A stretch of 30,706 nucleotides of DNA from a virus. Shown here piece by piece: positions 2,978 through 28,674 of this stretch. Below the pieces are notes generated by a model, which was given only the letters and a program-made list of their open reading frames with translations, did no database searches and was not told the DNA's origin. Position 1 is the stretch's first letter. Each line of letters starts with the position of its first letter. Location of the stretch: IMG/VR virus record IMGVR_UViG_3300030329_000806, positions 208-30,913 of that record; one strand, 5' to 3'. The translations under genes were made by a program, and so were the position numbers.

Positions 2978-4024
2978 CTAAGCCGGAAAGCTGGTGAGCT
3001 TGTTTTGCACGACATATTCGACATCCTGACCGGAGGTCGAATCGTACTGGCTGACAAGGTGCAGGCTGACCACGCTGTTGCCATCGCGATCTGCCCCGAT
3101 GTCCTGCATGGAGTCATCCGCGTGAACGAACGAACCCTTGAGGTCAATGTTGTGGTATCGCCCGCTGTCAGGCGATGCGAACGCCGCACCCTGTAACCGA
3201 AGCTGAATGAACCGCTTGCTGCCCAGAGCCTTGGCCGCCAGTTCTGTCTCGTACAGGTTCGAGCCGCCCGTGTCCAGCGTGGCCTGTATCACCAGGTCCG
3301 TGGTTCGTGTTTGCGGTTCAACGCCCGCAAAATCAAGCGCATCCCTGTTCTGGAGATAATACTGCGGCATCACCAAGGCCGACTGGCCCCAGGTGAATCC
3401 GTAGACCTGACCGTTGATATTCGTGTTGCCCAGGTTGGCCCATGTGGTGTCAAGGGTCATCATCCAGCGCAGGTTCGATGCGAACTCCACGGCTGGAAGC
3501 GCGATGCCACTGGTGTACGTGGACTGGACACTTTTCCTGGCATCCATTGACCACGTGATCTGCGGTAGGGCGTCTACACCACCCGTAATCTCGAACGATG
3601 TGGTTACGCCGAACGGTGCCTCGATCTCCTGCTTGGTCGATCCATCATCCACCACCATCTCAATGGTGTACGGGTCAACACTGGGCGCAGTCTGGCTGGG
3701 CGCGAACGTCCACAGCCTGGCTTCGCCTGTGCCTGGTGTGGATGGCGTTACCCCACCCTTGACGCCGGACAACAGCGGCAACAGCACCTGGTTAAAGTCG
3801 AGGTCTGTCGAGATCTCAAGCTGCGAGGCTTCTCGGGTTAGCACGGGCGATGTTGCGGACCTTGCCAGGGTGCCGCTCAGTTGCCCCTCGAACATCTCCT
3901 GAGTCTGCATGTGGCGATAGGTGCCACTCTTGGTCAATATGCGCCGTGTGGCGGCCACAGCCGTCCCATCGGTGCTTTCCTTGCCCACCTGGATGAGCGT
4001 CAGGGGTTGTAGTCCTGCGGCCAT
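2978..4024 (-). CDS. Major tail (tube) protein
   Basis: This 348-aa protein is predicted to polymerise into the tail tube. It opens MAAGLQPLTLIQVGKES and is rich in Thr, Ser, Asp and alternating beta-type sequence, with repeated STDLDF / QITWSMDAR / LVIQATLDTGG strand patterns. These are common in larger siphovirus tube proteins that carry an extra surface domain. It sits between the tail-completion genes and the tail chaperones, the expected slot. AGGAG lies about 10 bases before the ATG. The call is from length, composition and position; no catalytic motif is expected. Confidence 0.8.
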   Translation of the reverse strand: MAAGLQPLTLIQVGKESTDGTAVAATRRILTKSGTYRHMQTQEMFEGQLSGTLARSATSPVLTREASQLEISTDLDFNQVLLPLLSGVKGGVTPSTPGTGEARLWTFAPSQTAPSVDPYTIEMVVDDGSTKQEIEAPFGVTTSFEITGGVDALPQITWSMDARKSVQSTYTSGIALPAVEFASNLRWMMTLDTTWANLGNTNINGQVYGFTWGQSALVMPQYYLQNRDALDFAGVEPQTRTTDLVIQATLDTGGSNLYETELAAKALGSKRFIQLRLQGAAFASPDSGRYHNIDLKGSFVHADDSMQDIGADRDGNSVVSLHLVSQYDSTSGQDVEYVVQNKLTSFPA

Positions 4025-4026
4025 AG

Positions 4027-4188
4027 TTATTTATCTCCTGCGGCTTGTTTCTTAGCCGATTCTTTCTTGTACAGGTCGGACGCTTCGACGGCCTCCTGAA
4101 TACCTAACTCTTTAACCTCTTTATCGCTGAGGTCACGCGCTGGAACACCAGGGATGAAGTCCCCATTGCCCATGTATTTCCAAGCCAT
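4027..4188 (-). CDS. Small conserved-looking virion-module protein, 53 aa
   Basis: This short frame starts MAWKYMGNGDFIPGVPARDL and ends in a Lys-rich tail (KKQAAGDK). Two adjacent ATG codons are available; the second, at 4188, is five bases from a perfect AGGAGG and is preferred over the first, which would be only two bases away. The stop is three bases from the tail-tube ATG, so the two are coupled. Small proteins with an FIPGVPARDL-like segment occur next to head-tail genes in other phages, as far as I recall, but no function is known to me. Confidence 0.75.
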   Translation of the reverse strand: MAWKYMGNGDFIPGVPARDLSDKEVKELGIQEAVEASDLYKKESAKKQAAGDK

Positions 4189-4199
4189 CATTACCTCCT

Positions 4200-4649
4200 T
4201 TAGGTGATGGATACCGCCGCTTTGAGTTCAACATCTAGCAGCAAATCGAGGCCAATATAATCAACGCCAGCCCACGACAACACGCCCAGCGTGGGGTCAC
4301 TGCCCCTCAGGATGCTCTGGTTCACAGCCCCATCCAGCGTCACGTCAGCGTTCTGGGCCGTGATGATGGCGTTCATGTAACTGGAAGCAATGTCAGCCGC
4401 TCGGTCCTGGTCGGAATCGTGAACAATCAACTGCATCCGTATGGTGTAAAACAAGATCCGCAGTGAGATGTCCAGTTCCTGGCTGGTCAGCGTCCATGTA
4501 TTGAGGAAGCAAGGCGTGTCAGGCAGCGCCGAACTCATCGGCGGGGTGTATTTGTACGCCCGCTTGATGCTGCTGCTCACAGGGGCCGTGATGCTCAAGC
4601 CTTCTTGTAGGGTCACCAGGTTGGTCAGGGCCGTTCGGATATCAGCCAT
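4200..4649 (-). CDS. Tail terminator / tail-completion-like protein
   Basis: This 149-aa protein starts at the ATG at 4649, which overlaps the stop of the gp10-like gene (TGATG). A further upstream in-frame start would lie inside that gene and lacks a ribosome site. The sequence begins MADIRTALTNLVTLQEGL and has the alternating pattern LDISLRILFYTIRMQLIVHD, consistent with the alpha/beta fold of siphovirus tail terminators that cap the tube and join it to the head. Position between the gp10-like protein and the tail tube gene matches. The family match is inferred from position and length. Confidence 0.68.
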   Translation of the reverse strand: MADIRTALTNLVTLQEGLSITAPVSSSIKRAYKYTPPMSSALPDTPCFLNTWTLTSQELDISLRILFYTIRMQLIVHDSDQDRAADIASSYMNAIITAQNADVTLDGAVNQSILRGSDPTLGVLSWAGVDYIGLDLLLDVELKAAVSIT

Positions 4650-5122
4650 CAGCCGACCCACCCGCCGCCAAACCGCTCGGCCACTTTCTTTTCCAGCAGT
4701 TTCATCTGGAACGGCATCTTAATGACAATGGCTTGATGGGCCGCCTTCATAAAGAACCGGCCCTTGATGCCGCGCCGTGCGATGGCTCGGGCCACCACGA
4801 AGGCCAGGTTGGGATTGCCCAGCTTGCGCCGCGCCCAGCCACGTAAGGCGTTTGGTGGTGGCATCCGCGCCCCTTTACGCCGTCCATACTCCACCGGCAT
4901 GGCGTACGCCTTCATGCTGTAAATGCGGGCGCTCATGGGCTTGGCCTCGCTGTGGATGCTGCGCCGCAATGCCCCCGTGTCGCGGGGCGCTCGTTGCTTG
5001 GCGGTGCGTTCTCCAATGACTGCGATGGCCTGAAACATTTCAGCCATCGGCTCACGGTAGATTTGCGGCACCAGTTTGCGCTTCAGGGAATCCAGCCCTG
5101 TCATGTCGATGTCGTACTTCAT
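4649..5122 (-). CDS. HK97 gp10-like head-tail joining protein
   Basis: This 157-aa basic protein has the recognisable gp10-type layout. It has an N-terminal helix (MTGLDSLKRKL), the motif RAPRDTGALRRSIHSE near residues 45-58, which is the family hallmark (P-x-D-T-G-x-L-R-x-S), and a C-terminal basic helical region. The protein acts at the head-tail interface. Its ATG overlaps the stop of the connector gene (TAATG) and its own stop overlaps the next ATG, so it is translated within a coupled string. Confidence 0.85.
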   Translation of the reverse strand: MKYDIDMTGLDSLKRKLVPQIYREPMAEMFQAIAVIGERTAKQRAPRDTGALRRSIHSEAKPMSARIYSMKAYAMPVEYGRRKGARMPPPNALRGWARRKLGNPNLAFVVARAIARRGIKGRFFMKAAHQAIVIKMPFQMKLLEKKVAERFGGGWVG

Positions 5123-5739
5123 TAGAACAGGGACCGTTTCGCGTACACGTTCATCAGGGCGCTGACAATCTCCTGGGCCTGTCGGCTCGTTTCCAGCGTT
5201 GTCTCGGTGCCGATGTTGACGCTACGGGTGGCCCGTGGTGTCTCAAGGCGCAGGATGCCGGTCAGTTGCACGCAGGCCCGCTCAATCGCTGACGGCACAC
5301 TGGGCCAGCCGAACTTTCCCTTCACCTCTACGCGATGATTCCCCCATGAATCCTTGGTGGACCAGGATGGAATGAACAGTTCCATGTAGGGGCCAGGTTC
5401 CGGCCCATCGGCGGCGTTACGTGGCAGCAGTTCATAGTCTGTGGACGCCCAGGCATCCTCATCAGAGAAGCTGCCGTCATCATCGGTGTCCACCTTGATG
5501 TGGTTGACCGACACCAGGTCATCAATGAACAGGGACTTGGGTTGATTGGAATATTGGGTGGCCTGGTAGACCCGCTCAACATTGGCCGCATCGGTGGTAA
5601 AGAACCGCCCGAGTTTGCGTTCCATGTACCGGCTGACGGCGGTGAGGTCACTGAGAATCTCGGCATCCTCAGCCGTGTCGGACTTGTCGAGCATGGCGCG
5701 GTACGTAGCCGCGCTTGCATATGCGTCTGTAACTGCCAC
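5122..5739 (-). CDS. Head-tail connector protein (gp6-like adaptor)
   Basis: This 205-aa protein begins at a GTG (5739) seven bases after GGGAG. The N-terminal helical part (ATYRAMLDKSDTAEDAEILSDL and a helix ending in MERKLGRFF) and the following strands resemble connector proteins that form a ring under the portal. The later segment FGWPSVPSAIERACVQLTG is common in this family. It follows the capsid region and precedes the gp10-like gene, the usual gene order. Confidence 0.78.
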   Translation of the reverse strand: MAVTDAYASAATYRAMLDKSDTAEDAEILSDLTAVSRYMERKLGRFFTTDAANVERVYQATQYSNQPKSLFIDDLVSVNHIKVDTDDDGSFSDEDAWASTDYELLPRNAADGPEPGPYMELFIPSWSTKDSWGNHRVEVKGKFGWPSVPSAIERACVQLTGILRLETPRATRSVNIGTETTLETSRQAQEIVSALMNVYAKRSLF

Positions 5740-5833
5740 TTGCTAGCTCCCGCGTAGGCGTTAAAGCCAGCAACCGACGTGCAGGGGAGGGATCTACACG
5801 CCGGTTACTGGAAAAGTTCTGATAGCAACCATC
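5740..5833 (-). other. Short intergenic gap with a hairpin
   Basis: This 94-base gap holds an imperfect 8-bp stem (CCGGCGTG with CACGTCGG, one G-T pair) around a 15-base loop on the minus strand, with no T tract. A 12-codon frame in it ends in the same VTGV-stop as the major capsid gene. I see no supportable gene here. Confidence 0.4.
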
Positions 5834-6136
5834 TCAGGCCGCTGACGTTTCTGCGATGTAGGTGAGGTCGTCGCCTGCGTTGTCGCAGATGCGATACAAC
5901 AGATTCAGGTTTGAGATGTGCAGCGTGATTTCATCACCCGCATCCAACTCGATACCTGTGGTGGCGTCAGTGGACGCATCAACCTTCGTGACCCCCGCCC
6001 CGCCCAAATAGACGTTTCCCGCGTTGCCGTAAACGGCTTTGAGCGTGACGCGGTTGCACGGAATGTCCGGCAACTGGGCAGCCGAGGCCGACCCAGCAAG
6101 CTCACCCGAGACAATCTTGGTGTTGAGTATCGCCAT
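5834..6136 (-). CDS. Small beta-rich virion-module protein, 100 aa
   Basis: The start chosen is the ATG at 6136, which overlaps the previous stop (TAATG); a longer frame exists but would run into that gene. The protein has short alternating strands and Gly/Asp turns (NVYLGGAGVTKV, TTGIELDAGDEITLHI, DDLTYIA). This suggests a compact beta-sandwich, as in capsid decoration or minor head proteins. It lies in the head gene block. I do not recognise a named family, so decoration protein is only an inference from fold-like pattern and position. Confidence 0.72.
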   Translation of the reverse strand: MAILNTKIVSGELAGSASAAQLPDIPCNRVTLKAVYGNAGNVYLGGAGVTKVDASTDATTGIELDAGDEITLHISNLNLLYRICDNAGDDLTYIAETSAA

Positions 6137-6546
6137 TATGCGAACGTTATCGCGTCGGACACGATGACCAAACCCGTCGGCGCAAGGATGCACAGGTATA
6201 CGGTCCTGGCACCGGAATGCGTCATCGTGATCTGGCAGCTTCCGCTGTCATTGGTCTGCCATCGTGCAGACTTGGACGTACTGAACTGGAAATGCAAATT
6301 GCCATCGCCACCGTCTGCCCAGCCGCCACTTAGCGCGGTTGAAGTCTGTCCTTCACCATCACTGGCTTCGGATAGATAGGCGTCGAATACGACTGGCAAT
6401 GCCAGCGCCTCGGAGTACCCGAGGATCTCCACCTTGACGGTGATGGCGTTGGCACTTTCGGTTCCTATGGTGAAGGTCACGTCGTTCCAGGGCGGGATCG
6501 ACGCACCGGCGGCCTGCGCCGCTGTGATCATTGGTATGACGGCCAT
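6136..6546 (-). CDS. Hypothetical head-module protein, 136 aa, beta-rich
   Basis: It starts MAVIPMITAAQAAG. The body is alternating hydrophobic strands (VTFTIGTESANAITVKVEIL) and ends in ARTVYLCILAPTGLVIVSDAITFA. The pattern resembles an immunoglobulin-like or fibronectin-like domain, a fold often displayed on capsids or tails. Its ATG directly follows the stop of the AT-hook-like gene and its own stop overlaps the next ATG. Function unknown; virion surface or accessory role inferred from position. Confidence 0.72.
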   Translation of the reverse strand: MAVIPMITAAQAAGASIPPWNDVTFTIGTESANAITVKVEILGYSEALALPVVFDAYLSEASDGEGQTSTALSGGWADGGDGNLHFQFSTSKSARWQTNDSGSCQITMTHSGARTVYLCILAPTGLVIVSDAITFA

Positions 6547-8121: not shown

Positions 8122-9282
8122 TTACTCCTGCCCGTACTGGGCAATGGTGTTCTGGAACGCCGCGACATCGGTCAGGGCATCCCAGGTGTTGTTTCTCGGC
8201 TTTGGCTCGGTGCTGGTCAGTAAATCGTTCAGGTCGGATATCACCGCCCCCATGGATTCCACCAGTTGTCCCAGCCGCTTCCGATTGGCCGCTGATAAGG
8301 CGCGGCCTTCCTTGAGGCGTAGTTCAGCAAGCAGAGCCACGCGCTCCCTGTAGGCATCAATGGCGGTAAGCGCCAGATCACCTTCGTGTTTCATGGATAA
8401 CCCCTCGGCACTCTTGGCCCAGGGAACAATGATCGATTCATCGTCAAACGATTCCCGCATCTTCTGGTAGTACCGGTCAATGACGTCTTTCACGTGGTCT
8501 TCCGATTCCTGGTCAATGTCAACGCCCCCACGTGCGCCCTGGATGGCGGCAGCGGCGGCAAAGATGCCACGCGGTACAGCCCACAGCTTTCCATCCGTAA
8601 TGTCTGCGAATGGCAGCTTGAAGCCACCGAAGGATTCATCATCATCAGGGTCGTACCAGAAGAACGCCTTGGAGTACTTCGGCCAGTCCATCGTGTCTTT
8701 GTCGCCTGACCCGTCACTGCTGGCCCACTTGCGAACGCGGCCCAGGGCTGCGCTGCTGTTCCAGGCGTAGTCTCTGTCGTATAGGGGCAGGTCACCGAAG
8801 TCTGTGGCGGTCTTAACGGCCAGGGTTGCGGTGTCCATGCCAGCGCCACGCATCACGGGGCTGATCTCGAACGCCTTGAGGCGGCGCAGGAAGCGCACCT
8901 TCTGATCGTCTTGTTCGCCGTCTTCTGATTCCTCAACCGTGAACCCGTAGCTCCACTCGGATGCCACGTTGTTCTTGGCTTCAAATTTCAAGGTGTCGTA
9001 CAGGTCACGCCCGCCCACCGTGTCCAGGTTCAGTTGCCCTTCGGCTATTACCTGGTCGCCCACTTCCTGGATCGTGGCAACACCCACAGGCAGGTCATCA
9101 CGTACAGCACTGGAATGGTTGAAGCGGGATACGCGAACGGGGTCTGATCCCTCGAACGCGCCCTTGATCGTTACATCGTTATCTTTGTCAATGACGTTCA
9201 GGGTGGCAATGCGGGCGCTGAACGCTCCGGCATCATCACCATCAGCCTTGATCTCAACTGGGGCTGCCCAGGTTTTTCGCAT
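8122..9282 (-). CDS. HK97-family prohead protease with a C-terminal extension
   Basis: This is the serine protease that trims the capsid delta domain during maturation. The likely start is the ATG at 9282 (386 aa); a TTG at 9315 is possible but has no spaced ribosome site. Catalytic candidates are His56 in RFNHSS and Ser111 in ASEWSYGF, both in the expected family contexts. After about residue 160 comes a second domain of about 220 residues (KAFFWYDPDDDESFGGFKLPF, WAVPRGIFAAAAAIQGARGG). It recurs in phages fused to or beside this protease and is of unknown function. Transcription probably starts from the promoter at 9330-9358, just upstream. Confidence 0.92.
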   Translation of the reverse strand: MRKTWAAPVEIKADGDDAGAFSARIATLNVIDKDNDVTIKGAFEGSDPVRVSRFNHSSAVRDDLPVGVATIQEVGDQVIAEGQLNLDTVGGRDLYDTLKFEAKNNVASEWSYGFTVEESEDGEQDDQKVRFLRRLKAFEISPVMRGAGMDTATLAVKTATDFGDLPLYDRDYAWNSSAALGRVRKWASSDGSGDKDTMDWPKYSKAFFWYDPDDDESFGGFKLPFADITDGKLWAVPRGIFAAAAAIQGARGGVDIDQESEDHVKDVIDRYYQKMRESFDDESIIVPWAKSAEGLSMKHEGDLALTAIDAYRERVALLAELRLKEGRALSAANRKRLGQLVESMGAVISDLNDLLTSTEPKPRNNTWDALTDVAAFQNTIAQYGQE

Positions 9283-9329
9283 ACGCACAATGCCTTTGAT
9301 AACACCATGCGCCAACCTATCTGCTGGCT

Positions 9330-15686: not shown

Positions 15687-16060
15687 TCGTTATCACTCAG
15701 CTTCATGGTGGCCACCAGTTCCACTGGCCCCGAACGCGGCCCCGTGATCTGGAACCGTTCATTGTAGGTTTCGGGGTCCAGGCACTTGAGCAGGAATATC
15801 AGCGCCGTGGTGTTTCCGCTCAGGGCTTGCGCCCGCAGCGTGGCTTCCAGTAACTCAATGGCTTCTTCTTTCGCCCTATCAAAGTCAGCCCTGAACACCT
15901 CATCCTTCTGAAGCGTGAGATAGACGTGGCTTCGGCTGACCTGGGCGGCCAGCGAAGACGCCCGCATGTTGCCGCTGTTGGCATACGCGGCCAGGAACGG
16001 TCGCTTCCACTTGCCCGCTGATCGGTCATTGGCAGACCTGCCGCCCCTACGTTCAGCCAT
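15683..16060 (-). CDS. terS: Terminase small subunit
   Basis: This 125-aa protein precedes and overlaps the large terminase. The N-terminal half forms a helix-turn-helix-like unit (WKRPFLAAYANSGNMRASSLAAQVSRSHVYLTLQKD), which would recognise the packaging site. It is followed by an oligomerisation helix (EEAIELLEATLRAQALSG) and the PETYNERFQITGP tail seen in related small subunits. The ATG overlaps the end of the methyltransferase gene by 8 bases. Confidence 0.88.
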   Translation of the reverse strand: MAERRGGRSANDRSAGKWKRPFLAAYANSGNMRASSLAAQVSRSHVYLTLQKDEVFRADFDRAKEEAIELLEATLRAQALSGNTTALIFLLKCLDPETYNERFQITGPRSGPVELVATMKLSDNE

Positions 16061-17039
16061 CTTGCAATAGCTTTAATACGTGAGTGCCTACTGCCTGGGC
16101 CATTGGAGGGCAGACGCTATTCCCGATGAGCCGATAATCCTGCGCGTCAAGTTGAAACGTCGCAGGGAATCCTTGAAGTATCTTGGCTTCGTCAATGGTG
16201 ATAGGTCTCGTTTCGACTCCATCATTGATGGATGGGGGGCGAATGGCTGCCAATACTTGAACGGGCGCATTAAGGGAACGGCCAAGTTGCCGAGCGTTTT
16301 GTGGAAACGCAAATGATCCGGCAATGACCTGAACACGGGGCTTACGCGTAGCACGTAGGGAAGTGCCAGATTGATGGCCGCTTTTTCTTTTCTCAGGATG
16401 CCGCCCATCATCATGGGCAATGACCTGTGTTTGTATTGCGTTGCCAAAGGCTCGATTCACCGACACAGGAATTCGGGTTGTCGGCTCTGGGTGGCTGGGC
16501 GTGATCATGATGTCCCGACGAATTCCCACCCAGATCAACCTGCGTCGATCCTGTGGGACGCCATACCACGCAGCGTTTAATTCTCGACATGCCACCTGGT
16601 AGCCACAGGCTTTCAATGCTTGCGTGATTTCCGCGAATATCAATTTCATTTTGCCTTTGCGTAAGCCCGTGACGTTTTCCATGATGAACGCTTTTGGTGC
16701 CAATGCTTCCAATAACCGCACATATTCTTCGAATAGCCGGTTCCGACTATCCATGACTTCACGATGCCCAGCCGTTGAAAAGCCCTGGCATGGTGGCGAT
16801 CCATCCAGCACATCCAAATCGCCAGTAGCGACATTCGCCAGCTTCAATGCCTCGGCGCCTGAAAGCTTTGCAATATCCCCGTCAAATATTGTGGTGTCGG
16901 GAAAGTTCCGACGATATGCTGCTGCGGCCTGCGGGTCGTTCTCAATGGCCAGGCGCACATCAAATCCAGCCTCCTGGTAGCCCAATGATGAACCACCGCA
17001 CCCTGCGAACGAACTAACCAGGGTTGGCTTACTGGGCAT
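16053..17039 (-). CDS. DNA cytosine-5 methyltransferase (packaging-unit copy)
   Basis: This 328-aa enzyme transfers methyl from S-adenosylmethionine to carbon 5 of cytosine in DNA. All main motifs are visible: motif I SSFAGCGGSSLG, catalytic Cys84 in SPPCQGFS, ENV (121-123), QDRRR (163-167) and motif X GNSVCPP near the end. The ATG at 17039 lies inside the end of the ParB-like gene, which it overlaps by 11 bases; a longer upstream extension is not needed. By eye the gene is less GC-rich than its neighbours, which suggests later acquisition. No matching restriction enzyme is seen, so it is probably protective. Confidence 0.95.
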   Translation of the reverse strand: MPSKPTLVSSFAGCGGSSLGYQEAGFDVRLAIENDPQAAAAYRRNFPDTTIFDGDIAKLSGAEALKLANVATGDLDVLDGSPPCQGFSTAGHREVMDSRNRLFEEYVRLLEALAPKAFIMENVTGLRKGKMKLIFAEITQALKACGYQVACRELNAAWYGVPQDRRRLIWVGIRRDIMITPSHPEPTTRIPVSVNRAFGNAIQTQVIAHDDGRHPEKRKSGHQSGTSLRATRKPRVQVIAGSFAFPQNARQLGRSLNAPVQVLAAIRPPSINDGVETRPITIDEAKILQGFPATFQLDAQDYRLIGNSVCPPMAQAVGTHVLKLLQDG

Positions 17040-17550
17040 GGTGATGTTCGTGCTTGCAAATAGGACATACACACAGTTCAATGCCAGCGGCGATATCTTC
17101 GGTGATCTCGGCACCCAGGGTCGCTGGTTCGCCGATAGTTAAAGGGTCGTAGCCATTAGCTACTGAATTCAGTAAGTCCTGAATCTCTGTACTGTCCGTG
17201 GTGACACGCGCCAACAAACGCCCTAGGGCTTCGGCATCCTGTTCAGCCATCGCCCCGATGGGGTCATAGGTTGCCAGCACCACGTCAGCCTCGGCTTCGG
17301 TCAGGTCAGTAACCAGCACCGGCACCGTGGCTTCTCCTACCATCTCAGCCCTGGCATGGCCGTCAATGATGACCAGCCCGCCATCCTCATCTTCACGAGC
17401 TATGACCGCGCCAGCAAAGCCCACCTCATCCAGCACAGCAGCCAGCGCCCGTTGCTGGGCCTGCGGATGCCTGCGCCAGTTGGCCGGATTTGCTATCAGT
17501 TGATCAGCCGGAACCAGCCGCATTTCGGTCACCCGATCCTGTACGTTCAT
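17029..17550 (-). CDS. ParB-like nuclease-domain protein with a Cys/His tail
   Basis: This 173-aa protein has an N-terminal ParB/sulfiredoxin fold. MRLVPADQLIANPANWRRHP, VIAREDEDGGLVIIDGHARAEM (IDGHAR near 62-67) and TDLTEAEADVVLATYD are the standard blocks. In phages such proteins often sit beside DNA methyltransferases and terminases and may be DNA-binding or nucleotide-dependent switches. The C-terminus ends C160-V-C-P-I-C-K-H-E-H-H-H, a possible metal site that is unusual for this family. GAGGG lies close to the ATG. It opens the packaging unit. Confidence 0.88.
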   Translation of the reverse strand: MNVQDRVTEMRLVPADQLIANPANWRRHPQAQQRALAAVLDEVGFAGAVIAREDEDGGLVIIDGHARAEMVGEATVPVLVTDLTEAEADVVLATYDPIGAMAEQDAEALGRLLARVTTDSTEIQDLLNSVANGYDPLTIGEPATLGAEITEDIAAGIELCVCPICKHEHHHAQ

Positions 17551-22456: not shown

Positions 22457-23497
22457 TTACAGGATGTCGCCTATTGCCTCCTTTCTAAGTTGTCGCCATG
22501 CTGTTGCTGCCACCGCTGGAACGACAGAGTTTCCAGTGGCTGCAAGTCGGTCCACCCGATTGGGAATCCCATCAGCCATTCGACGAATCGCGGGTTCAAG
22601 GCTCGCTTCGAGGCGTAGAACTTCTGCCCAGGCATCGTATGCTGTGGGGCTTGGCGGCCAAGTAAGCCATCCTGGGTCCCATCGCGTCCGAGTTTTGGGT
22701 TGTACCCTTCGTTCGCATCGCGGCCCGTCGGTGTTCCCCAGTTTTGCGTCTGCCTGCCCAGTGTCATCACCGGCTTCTCTTTGAGATCGGCCCCATCCTT
22801 CCAACCCCGTGCCATCGGCGTTCTCCACTTCGACGCTGTGCCGATCAAACCCGACTGAAGGCTGTTGACTGTCACCTTGCCCCCATCGTCGCTCTTTGTC
22901 GGTGTGGGCCAATGACTCGCCTGATCCCCAAGGTGGACCGTCTGGCCTTTGCGTTTTATGTCGATTGGGTTCGATGTCCCGCCATGCTTGCTCTCGTCGG
23001 TTGGTGTGCGCCAGGATAAAGAGCCGCTGCCGCTTATGTGGGGCGCCAACTTCTGCCGCCGTAAAGAGTCCTGCTTCAACCGTGTAGCCCATATCGCGAA
23101 GGTCTCGCCATACTGATTCAAAACCAAGCGAAAGGTGTCCAGCCACGTTTTCAAAGAAGCAGAATCGTGGTTGGATTTCAGAAATGATTCGCCGGATATC
23201 GGGCCAGAGGTGTCGGGGATCGTCCTCCCCTTTTCGACGGCCCGCGTAGGAGAATGGCTGGCACGGGTAGCCGCCAGTGATGCAATCCACAACGCCACGC
23301 CACGGCTTGCCGTCGAAGGTTTTGAGGTCAGTCCAGATTGGTGCATCGTCAAGAACACCGTCGCGAACACGGGCGAGTGTGACAGCGAGCGGATAGGCTT
23401 CCCTCTCCACATAACAGACTGTGCGAGCGCTGGGTTCGGCAAGTTTGAGTCCGAGTTCAATGCCTCCGATGCCGGAACATATAGCCAGGACATTCAC
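22457..23497 (-). CDS. DNA cytosine-5 methyltransferase (recombination-module copy)
   Basis: This 346-aa enzyme shows motif I ICSGIGGIELGL (6-17), catalytic Cys79 in GGYPCQPFS, FENV (115-118), KRQRLFILA (155-163) and motif X TGNSVVPAVA (321-330). The GTG start at 23497 overlaps the exonuclease stop (GTGA). Residues about 165-280 (LAHTD, VENADGTGLEGWG, LGNTDGPR) are unusual, Gly/Asp-rich and low in hydrophobic residues. In this stretch the same DNA also encodes a plausible second protein in another frame. The gene interrupts the exonuclease-RecT pair. The likely role is protection from host restriction. Confidence 0.93.
   Translation of the reverse strand: MNVLAICSGIGGIELGLKLAEPSARTVCYVEREAYPLAVTLARVRDGVLDDAPIWTDLKTFDGKPWRGVVDCITGGYPCQPFSYAGRRKGEDDPRHLWPDIRRIISEIQPRFCFFENVAGHLSLGFESVWRDLRDMGYTVEAGLFTAAEVGAPHKRQRLFILAHTNRREQAWRDIEPNRHKTQRPDGPPWGSGESLAHTDKERRWGQGDSQQPSVGFDRHSVEVENADGTGLEGWGRSQREAGDDTGQADAKLGNTDGPRCERRVQPKTRTRWDPGWLTWPPSPTAYDAWAEVLRLEASLEPAIRRMADGIPNRVDRLAATGNSVVPAVAATAWRQLRKEAIGDIL
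22471..23493 (-). CDS. Overlapping second frame within the methyltransferase gene, 340 aa
   Basis: This frame is open for 340 codons on the same strand, with an ATG at 23493. Its sequence is not random. It has four W-x-T-P units (WRTPT 161, WPTPT 195, WRTPM 223, WGTPT 252), the segment SASLKTWLDTF and the end LNPRFVEWLMGFPIGWT (299-315). As far as I recall, SLKT, W-P-T-P and LNP-x-(F/W)-V-E-W-L-M-G-x-P-x-G-W-T strings recur together in phage genomes at methyltransferase loci. The first 95 residues look like an ordinary shadow, so the real product may start internally. Dual coding is a hypothesis. Confidence 0.5.
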   Translation of the reverse strand: MSWLYVPASEALNSDSNLPNPALAQSVMWRGKPIRSLSHSPVFATVFLTMHQSGLTSKPSTASRGVALWIASLAATRASHSPTRAVEKGRTIPDTSGPISGESFLKSNHDSASLKTWLDTFRLVLNQYGETFAIWATRLKQDSLRRQKLAPHISGSGSLSWRTPTDESKHGGTSNPIDIKRKGQTVHLGDQASHWPTPTKSDDGGKVTVNSLQSGLIGTASKWRTPMARGWKDGADLKEKPVMTLGRQTQNWGTPTGRDANEGYNPKLGRDGTQDGLLGRQAPQHTMPGQKFYASKRALNPRFVEWLMGFPIGWTDLQPLETLSFQRWQQQHGDNLERRQ

Positions 23498-24378
23498 GGT
23501 GCCACCTTTACCACCAGGCGGCGCTTGCCGGTCTTGCCCACACGGTGTGTCGCTGCCACGGTGCCATCACGCCGGTTGATCTGCTCATAGGTGTCGCCCA
23601 TTGCCTGCACGATCTGGGCATCCAGCCGCTTGACCATGTGGCTGGCCTCTTGCTCCTGGCTCTTCCATGCCCCCCGCTCATCCAGCACCATCTCCAGGTG
23701 ATCGTCAGCGGTCAGGATTAACCCCTGCTCGGGTGGCAGCCCCAGAACAATGTCTGACCGTTGATCGGGCAGCGGGACATCATCCCCGTGAACATATTGC
23801 ATGAACCAGGCATCGGCATACGCCGCCCATTCCTCGAACCAGTCGGGGTTCGGACTGACCTGGTACTGCCGCCAATCATTGCCCCCGATCAGGGCGCAGA
23901 TCACGGCTTCCGGCGCACCGACGCAGCCGAGTTGCCACCAGACCTGTTGCAGGTAGTGTTCTGGAATGTTGCCTTCGGCCTCACTGCCGGACGGCCCCCA
24001 TTCATCGGACATCCACGCCGAGACGTTCTTGCACTCGATCAGCGCCACATCCTTCACGGCGGTCATATCACCGACCAGGTAATCCGGTGTCGCGGCCACG
24101 TGGTGAATCTCAGGATGCGGCCACGGGGTCACATAATCTTCAGCGAAGGCGGCCACCTTGCACTCATGGAGTTCGCCGTACCTGGCCGCAATCAGCGGTT
24201 CCAGCCGGTTCCCCCAGTAGAACAGATCATTGACCTCATCTTCAGTCACCGGCTGCATCTTGTCGGCCCAGACACTAAACGGGCCACCCCACGAGGCTGG
24301 GGCTGCGCCGGTCAGCTTCGCGATATCCGAAGCCCCGATATATAGCTTGCGGGCTTCAAGCCATGCCATGCGTTCCAT
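23494..24378 (-). CDS. YqaJ-type viral recombinase exonuclease
   Basis: This 294-aa protein is a lambda-exonuclease-like PD-(D/E)xK nuclease that resects DNA ends for RecT. Visible motifs are IGASDIAKLTG (14-24), WGNRLEP (Glu60), ATPDYLV (Asp99), ALIECKN (Glu115, Lys117) and YLQQVWWQLG (142-151). The ATG at 24378 is preceded by GATAGGAG and is preferred over an upstream TTG. The C-terminal 70 residues are charged and helical. Confidence 0.94.
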   Translation of the reverse strand: MERMAWLEARKLYIGASDIAKLTGAAPASWGGPFSVWADKMQPVTEDEVNDLFYWGNRLEPLIAARYGELHECKVAAFAEDYVTPWPHPEIHHVAATPDYLVGDMTAVKDVALIECKNVSAWMSDEWGPSGSEAEGNIPEHYLQQVWWQLGCVGAPEAVICALIGGNDWRQYQVSPNPDWFEEWAAYADAWFMQYVHGDDVPLPDQRSDIVLGLPPEQGLILTADDHLEMVLDERGAWKSQEQEASHMVKRLDAQIVQAMGDTYEQINRRDGTVAATHRVGKTGKRRLVVKVAP

Positions 24379-24387
24379 AATCAACTC

Positions 24388-27489: not shown

Positions 27490-28674
27490 TTATGAAAGTG
27501 TCATCGCTGGTGGGCCAACGGCTGACGACAACGACGTCGGCCACGCCCCGACCGTAAAGCTAGACGGTAGTGGGAAATCCGATGTTTCTCGTTGCATCAT
27601 GCGGGTTGCCATCGTGTCGGCGCCGGTGGTTTGGCCCCATTTGAACGTCGTATTATCAACAGCGAGCGCCAGATAATGCTGCCCTGCGGATATGTCCGTT
27701 GACGCCACGGTAAACGTTCGGACGCCAGTCCCCGGACTCGAGGTCGAGCCAGACGACACGAGCTTGGTGCCGGACGAGTTATATAACCCGACGTCGAGAT
27801 TTCCGCTGCTGGTTTGAATGTAGAAGCTAATCTTGGTGATGGTCATATCGCCCATGACGTCAATCGGCATGTAGAACGCATCGTTATTGGCGATAGCTCC
27901 ACCACTGGAGCCATTTCCTGTCATGCCGAAATACGATACGTTCACAATCTTCTGGGTAAACCCACCACCAGTTGCGGCTTGAAACGTTGGTGCGGCTCCG
28001 GCTCCGTTGCTGGTCAAAACGTGAGTTGCTGTTCCCGTGGCGACCGCAGCAGCCGTGCCTGCGGCAGACCACGTAATTAGCTCACCGTCTGTGCCATCAG
28101 CCAATGCGGATAACCCGATGGATTTGGCCTGGATGTGACCGCTGCCAATCTTAAGCATTTCGCCAGGGAGCAGCAGCATGACGGTGCCGGTACTGGCATG
28201 ACTGGTGACTACCACGCCCACCTTCTGCTGTAGCTGGGCCGCCCCCGTTGGAGCGGTTGCCGTCCAGCCGCCAGCCGTGGCTGACAGATATACAGGATCG
28301 CCAACACTTGAGCCGGACGTGTCCTGCGAACCCAGCGTGTACCCGCGAAAGGCATACCCCGCCGCACCATCGGCGATTGCGGCCTGCAACACATATTCAG
28401 CCATGCGGCTGTCAGCGTCGGCCTTCGTGACCTGCGGGGCGCCCGTTGATGCGTCATACCCTGAGATATAGACCAGCGTTCCCGCCGCCAGGCTGCCGCC
28501 CGTGCTGTTGTCCACCGGTATGCCCAGCCGTACGTCCTGGATATGCCCCGTACTGGTTTGTCCAGACTGCCACGCCTGGTTACTGATAAGTTGATCCCAG
28601 ATCGTCTCGGTCAGCACGTCACCCGTGCTGCGGTCCAGGCTGTCGGGGTCGGTCCATGTTTCAGATACTGCCAT
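27490..28674 (-). CDS. Probable tail fibre / receptor-binding protein
   Basis: This 394-aa protein begins MAVSETWTDPDSLDRSTGDVLTETIWDQLISN, an attachment-like start common in fibre proteins. It continues with Gly/Ala/Thr/Ser-rich, strand-forming sequence. The C-terminal 150 residues (ITKISFYIQTSSGNLDVGLYNSSGTKLVSSG, FTVASTDISAGQHYLALAVDN) look like a beta-sandwich carbohydrate- or receptor-binding domain. It is downstream of the minor tail gene and four bases from it, as expected for the host-recognition protein. Confidence 0.72.
   Translation of the reverse strand: MAVSETWTDPDSLDRSTGDVLTETIWDQLISNQAWQSGQTSTGHIQDVRLGIPVDNSTGGSLAAGTLVYISGYDASTGAPQVTKADADSRMAEYVLQAAIADGAAGYAFRGYTLGSQDTSGSSVGDPVYLSATAGGWTATAPTGAAQLQQKVGVVVTSHASTGTVMLLLPGEMLKIGSGHIQAKSIGLSALADGTDGELITWSAAGTAAAVATGTATHVLTSNGAGAAPTFQAATGGGFTQKIVNVSYFGMTGNGSSGGAIANNDAFYMPIDVMGDMTITKISFYIQTSSGNLDVGLYNSSGTKLVSSGSTSSPGTGVRTFTVASTDISAGQHYLALAVDNTTFKWGQTTGADTMATRMMQRETSDFPLPSSFTVGAWPTSLSSAVGPPAMTLS

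Follow-up and report, generated by a model that had tools for sequence, protein, structure and literature searches.

The window, a stretch of 30,706 nucleotides of viral DNA, carries a C5-cytosine DNA methyltransferase gene whose neighbours on this phage contig are the recombination genes YqaJ and RecT; no restriction enzyme partner was identified for it among these neighbours. The first-pass annotation had described the gene as open in two frames of the same strand, and both frames were confirmed. The methyltransferase frame, called alpha here, matches PF00145 with E=5e-34, and the second frame, called beta, stays open for 340 codons and contains all the strings named in that annotation, i.e., four W-x-T-P units, SASLKTW, and LNPRFVEWLMGFPIGWT. 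The features of the locus are as follows:

22457..23497, minus strand: alpha, putative large subunit of a C5-cytosine methyltransferase, 346 aa, GTG start
22471..23493, minus strand: beta, protein in the +1 frame, 340 aa, ATG start
23491..23497, minus strand: double start GTGAATG, at which both frames begin
23494..24384, minus strand: upstream YqaJ-like recombinase gene, whose stop overlaps the alpha start
22982..23497, minus strand: catalytic domain of alpha, motifs I–VIII, residues 1–172, AlphaFold pLDDT about 95
22673..22930, minus strand: alpha residues 190–275, at the position of the target-recognition domain of monomeric enzymes, predicted disordered (pLDDT <50)
22472..22534, minus strand: alpha motif X (GNSVVP...), G322 and N323 invariant, pLDDT 88–96
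23041..23214, minus strand: beta residues 94–151, SASLKTW region, counterpart of the '...SETWPxxGMxRNG' block of relatives
22609..23040, minus strand: beta variable region with four W-x-T-P units (WRTP, WPTP, WRTP, WGTP)
22543..22599, minus strand: beta motif-IX-like block LNPRFVEWLMGFPIGWTDL, superposed on alpha EPAIRRMADGIPNRVDRL, immediately before motif X

The start region reads CCGTGAATG. The alpha GTG shares bases with the TGA stop of the preceding YqaJ gene, and the beta ATG, 4 nt 3′ of that GTG, directly follows the same TGA; AAAGGTGG, just 5′ of the double start, is a possible ribosome-binding site. The dual stretch had been taken to coincide with the target-recognition part of the methyltransferase. 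It spans the whole gene and not that part alone, although the strongest beta-specific features, the WxTP region and the motif-IX block, do overlie the target-recognition region and C-terminus of alpha.

Alpha has the conserved PCQ, ENV, and GAPH blocks and matches PHROG 363 (7e-65), with its Pfam match limited to profile positions 1–181 of 324. Foldseek likewise matched M.HaeIII and M.HhaI over the catalytic domain only (about 171 columns). Judged by Pfam extent and pLDDT, alpha is not a single complete chain with a folded target-recognition domain and motif IX. The same phage has a second C5-methyltransferase gene (16053–17114, minus strand), which encodes a canonical single chain spanned by Pfam from end to end (PF00145 positions 4–322 of 324), as against the catalytic half only of alpha, and the +1 frame of this second gene is closed by 11 stops.

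Beta matches PHROG 1008 (E=2.2e-23, residues 45–318, profile positions 17–282 of 329), a phage family that was known before, without an explanation. Catalytic motifs are absent from beta, no match to it was found in Pfam or NCBIfam, and a sequence search of the PDB gave none. AlphaFold predicted no confident fold for beta alone (pLDDT 54.9, too low for a fold search), a result compatible both with an obligate partner and with nothing more than a poor alignment. Its N-terminus has a conserved M-x-W start, the SASLKTW region overlies the motif VI–VIII region of alpha, and the number of W-x-T-P units varies from 0 to 6 across the relatives. The terminal block follows the pattern LNPxFVEWLMGFPxGWT across relatives, in which L, N, P, V, E, L, M, and P are each at least 90% conserved. 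From its place before motif X and this pattern, as in 'ITIDEAKILQGFPATF' of the second C5 enzyme (16053–17114), we identify the block as a putative motif IX; the assignment is based on the location and residue pattern of a short block, with no profile match to any solved enzyme, and a profile made from in-frame actinophage enzymes aligned with M.HhaI in the catalytic half only. The block lies in the +1 frame with motif X in the alpha frame in 133 of the 147 catalytic-domain hits of the viral set and in 78 of the 80 hits of the bacterial set.

Relatives of beta were found at no fewer than 546 places in IMG/VR and at least 484 in GTDB. Searches with beta and alpha (tblastn) gave co-located matches in phages of Synechococcus, Acinetobacter, Acidovorax, Klebsiella, and Paenibacillus, and the two matches coincide in phages spanning 41–66% GC. 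Of the loci retrieved first (36–66% GC), all except one have a long beta-matching ORF exactly in the +1 frame, and the +2 frame is closed.

When the codons of the window alpha were shuffled synonymously, the +1 frame was fully open in 0 of 200 and 1 of 500 permutations (~0.2%); taken alone, the gene is thus no more than moderately unusual, and it is the comparison between loci that decides. In 113 distinct loci, 20 stops were observed in the +1 frame against about 501 expected, namely 19 against 293.9 over motifs I–VIII (ratio 0.065) and 1 against 207.2 in the part 3′ of them (ratio 0.005), counts that overstate independence to the extent that the loci share kinship. The +2 control in the same 113 loci showed no depletion (1518 stops against 1506.5 expected), and 67 further loci from bacterial genomes had 0 stops in +1 against about 127 expected. 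Seventeen of the 20 observed +1 stops fall in three low-GC loci, 5′ of codon 56, and are consistent with a later start of beta there. The codon-permutation null is slightly biased, since the other genes of the window have 227 +1 stops against 280 expected (ratio 0.81); a bias of this size comes nowhere near accounting for the alpha/beta ratios. It should also be mentioned that the genes at 8122–9315 and 27490–28674 (minus strand) are significantly depleted in +1 stops relative to codon permutation (13 against 20.5 and 9 against 17.4, respectively), probably as a result of codon-context bias.

Of 182 loci, 172 have the start codons of alpha and beta spaced at −5, −2, or +4 nt; sets of other spacings occur in 4–17 of the 182. 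Among relatives, the third-base differences that are synonymous in alpha lead to beta replacements more conservative than expected. After fitting of the transition bias, this test gave z = 5.3 for the catalytic (N) half, with z = −1.0 in the +2 control; in the C half, the +2 frame was positive too, so the replacement test is clean for the N half only. A permutation test of the window beta against its HMM gave z = 12, but a control returned high conservation scores for other frames too. We therefore do not lean on this test, and column conservation in +1 was dropped as sole evidence.

At close range, the constraint is less visible. When the window is set against locus L001, its closest relative, the divergence at fourfold sites is 0.21–0.23 in alpha and 0.24–0.28 in the flanking genes; alpha is slightly below the flanking genes, and a clearly lower synonymous divergence was not found in this pair. 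The constraint on beta is therefore weak to moderate at this distance. In the same comparison, the DNA of about 22662–23003 is unalignable and its flanks are 81–85% identical, which suggests that the specificity region was exchanged by recombination with both frames staying open. L001 also has, at about 3778–6142, ~2.4 kb between the methyltransferase and RecT genes that is absent from the window.

Overall, dual coding at this gene is real, conserved, and above chance. The overprinting with both products under selection that was suggested from the window alone is supported by the homologues elsewhere, the stop avoidance in +1 only, the paired starts, and the conservative beta replacements. A lack of second-frame homologues outside this locus and codon variation running free in that frame had been named as findings that would speak against it; homologues elsewhere are many, and variation is not free, with stops avoided in that frame only and replacements conservative.

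Actinophages present the same parts in other arrangements, as separate genes or fused (Sassafras gp71/gp72, Neeharika16 gp88/gp87, Lunsford gp79/gp78, Shida gp6/gp5, KBurrousTX gp79/gp80, and IrishSherpFalk gp71), and the C-terminal half of beta is annotated in actinophages as a gene of its own. In IrishSherpFalk gp71, residues 194–390, in frame with the catalytic domain, match PHROG 1008 with 1.3e-57. In L036, L045, L063, and several mycobacteriophages, the +1 ORF holds the WxTP region together with motifs IX and X; tandem duplication as the source of separate IX and X (L036/L045) was rejected, the second-frame echo not being seen. In Raleigh (L143, gp38) and 1191A (L148) the parts of the enzyme are arranged in yet a third way, with IX and X in the catalytic frame and the LPTP repeats in an open +1 frame, and a +1 ORF with SETWP/LPTP blocks is still present in IrishSherpFalk, Raleigh, 1191A, and Lton. 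Fusions and frame switches have thus occurred in more than one way.

The suggestion that an ancestral reading frame was reused is plausible for the WxTP/motif-IX part. There, the frame of beta could predate that of alpha, because the part is also found in frame with the catalytic domain in actinophages (IrishSherpFalk gp71). The direction is unproven because the one-chain actinophage enzymes also carry the +1 ORF and may be secondary fusions.

Among the systems described earlier, M.EcoHK31I, which recognises YGGCCR, is a laboratory precedent dating from the 1990s, and its beta is a shorter, internal chain read from another frame within the alpha gene. The first-pass annotation had named neither this precedent nor the likely function of the window gene. 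The window beta is also encoded inside the alpha gene in another frame, but unlike that of M.EcoHK31I it spans nearly all of the alpha gene and shares the start site. As M.EcoHK31I is summarised in PMC3404938, citing Lee et al. 1995, methylation needs two proteins, motifs I–VIII and X are in the larger subunit and only IX is in the smaller, and the predicted target-recognition domain is assigned to the larger subunit. Compared by description only, the window and the 133 of 147 hits with motif X in the alpha frame are alike in placing a short IX-like block in the other chain. They may differ in target recognition: alpha residues 190–275 are disordered in the model of the window protein, and the variable WxTP region of beta covers the same DNA.

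M.AquI (CYCGRG) is a split C5 methyltransferase of two chains, a layout shared by L036, L045, L063, and the actinophage gene pairs; its small subunit holds IX and X, whereas alpha holds motif X in the window. The 'g55 internal gene' of Paenibacillus phage Shelly, annotated as internal to a methyltransferase gene, is of the same beta family (PHROG 1008) and begins later than the window beta; family and gene are described only as 'DNA methyltransferase', with no mention of a second frame or a subunit role. Some phage DNA methylases contain an out-of-frame HNH endonuclease of the ShiLan type, a mobile insertion, in the third frame (PMC11855218). The window gene is similar in hiding a second protein out of frame within a phage methylase, but here the second frame runs through the coding region of the enzyme itself and lacks any HNH match. 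In a literature search of incomplete coverage, we found no account of the present overlap in phages.

Considering these data, we regard it as probable that alpha and beta are the two subunits of one heterodimeric C5-cytosine DNA methyltransferase, encoded by this gene in overlapping frames. Ribosomes would reach the YqaJ stop, or reinitiate after it, and begin at the GTG of alpha or at the ATG 4 nt further on for beta, so that both chains would come from one initiation region. Alpha would supply the SAM-binding and catalytic fold (motifs I–VIII) and motif X, without a folded target-recognition domain, and beta the variable WxTP region and the motif-IX block. Beta would then bind alpha, complete the small domain, and select the DNA target. 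That both chains are translated and associated and methylate a target, with beta acting in recognition, is inferred.

This two-subunit reading has to be weighed against three others. If the open +1 frame were a compositional shadow of the methyltransferase frame, beta would never be made. The window gene alone, with only about 4 stops expected in +1, would allow this, as would the mild depletion in the other window genes described above, and codon-permuted sequences still score ~150 bits against the beta model, so alpha dictates much of the resemblance to beta. The depletion over the 113 loci and its completeness in the 67 bacterial loci are of another order, specific to +1, and extend to low-GC phages; the start pairing, the conservative beta replacements, and the existence of the C-terminal half of beta elsewhere as a separate gene or an in-frame domain stand against such a shadow as well, and we consider it extremely unlikely. 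Programmed frameshifting past motif VIII, which would carry ribosomes from alpha into the beta frame and give a single polypeptide, would account for L036, L045, L063, and the several mycobacteriophages with WxTP, IX, and X in +1, where one shift would yield a complete enzyme. It is nevertheless very unlikely: genes of the window type, with motif X in the alpha frame, would require two shifts, and neither the paired starts nor the stop avoidance over motifs I–VIII, 5′ of any shift site, would be explained.

Beta could also be real and selected and yet no methyltransferase subunit, e.g., an overlapping anti-restriction or regulatory protein, a reading that we consider unlikely but less so than the previous two. 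It would suit a protein without a confident fold alone and without Pfam or NCBIfam matches, and the three loci in which alpha has one in-frame stop and beta is open across it (L006, TAG at 3292–3294; L197, TGA at 4478–4480; L163, TGA at 4040–4042), stops that may represent alpha decay, recoding, or sequencing error. In the loci examined, however, beta adjoins or overlies the catalytic domain of alpha, its C-terminal half is homologous to the region after the catalytic domain of in-frame actinophage methyltransferases, and the motifs are divided as in M.EcoHK31I. In another four loci (L027, L047, L048, and L114), alpha is apparently frameshifted in its catalytic part, with the start and the remainder in different frames, by assembly error or in reality.

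Returning to the two-subunit enzyme, the dual-coding gene is most likely a new, widespread form of the EcoHK31I-like methyltransferase, being of that known kind because its motif division matches that of M.EcoHK31I. More tentatively, and at somewhat less than even chances, we propose a large and old family of near-fully dual-coded phage enzymes, in which the two subunits of one methyltransferase come from the same DNA over their full length. With starts no more than 5 nt apart, the supply of the two subunits would be coupled; the specificity region would be exchanged while open in both frames; and the relatives in actinophages, in which the enzyme is fused, split, or divided with the specificity region in one frame and motif IX in another, could allow transitions between one-chain and overprinted two-chain enzymes to be traced.

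Annotation at alpha/beta loci is unreliable. When the annotated CDS frame was compared with the alpha and beta ORFs in 13 records, seven had alpha alone, five beta alone, and one, Shelly, both. In the five beta-only records (L049, L051, L057, L059, and L060), beta appears as a hypothetical protein or, twice, as a 'methyltransferase', and the record lacks the catalytic frame. Cloned from the annotated frame alone, many solitary phage 'methyltransferases' may be inactive.

Long gene overlaps on the same strand have seldom been demonstrated, and the hundreds of copies here make selection on both frames measurable. In this family one could study how a one-chain enzyme becomes two overlapping subunits and how a specificity region can vary under constraint from two frames.
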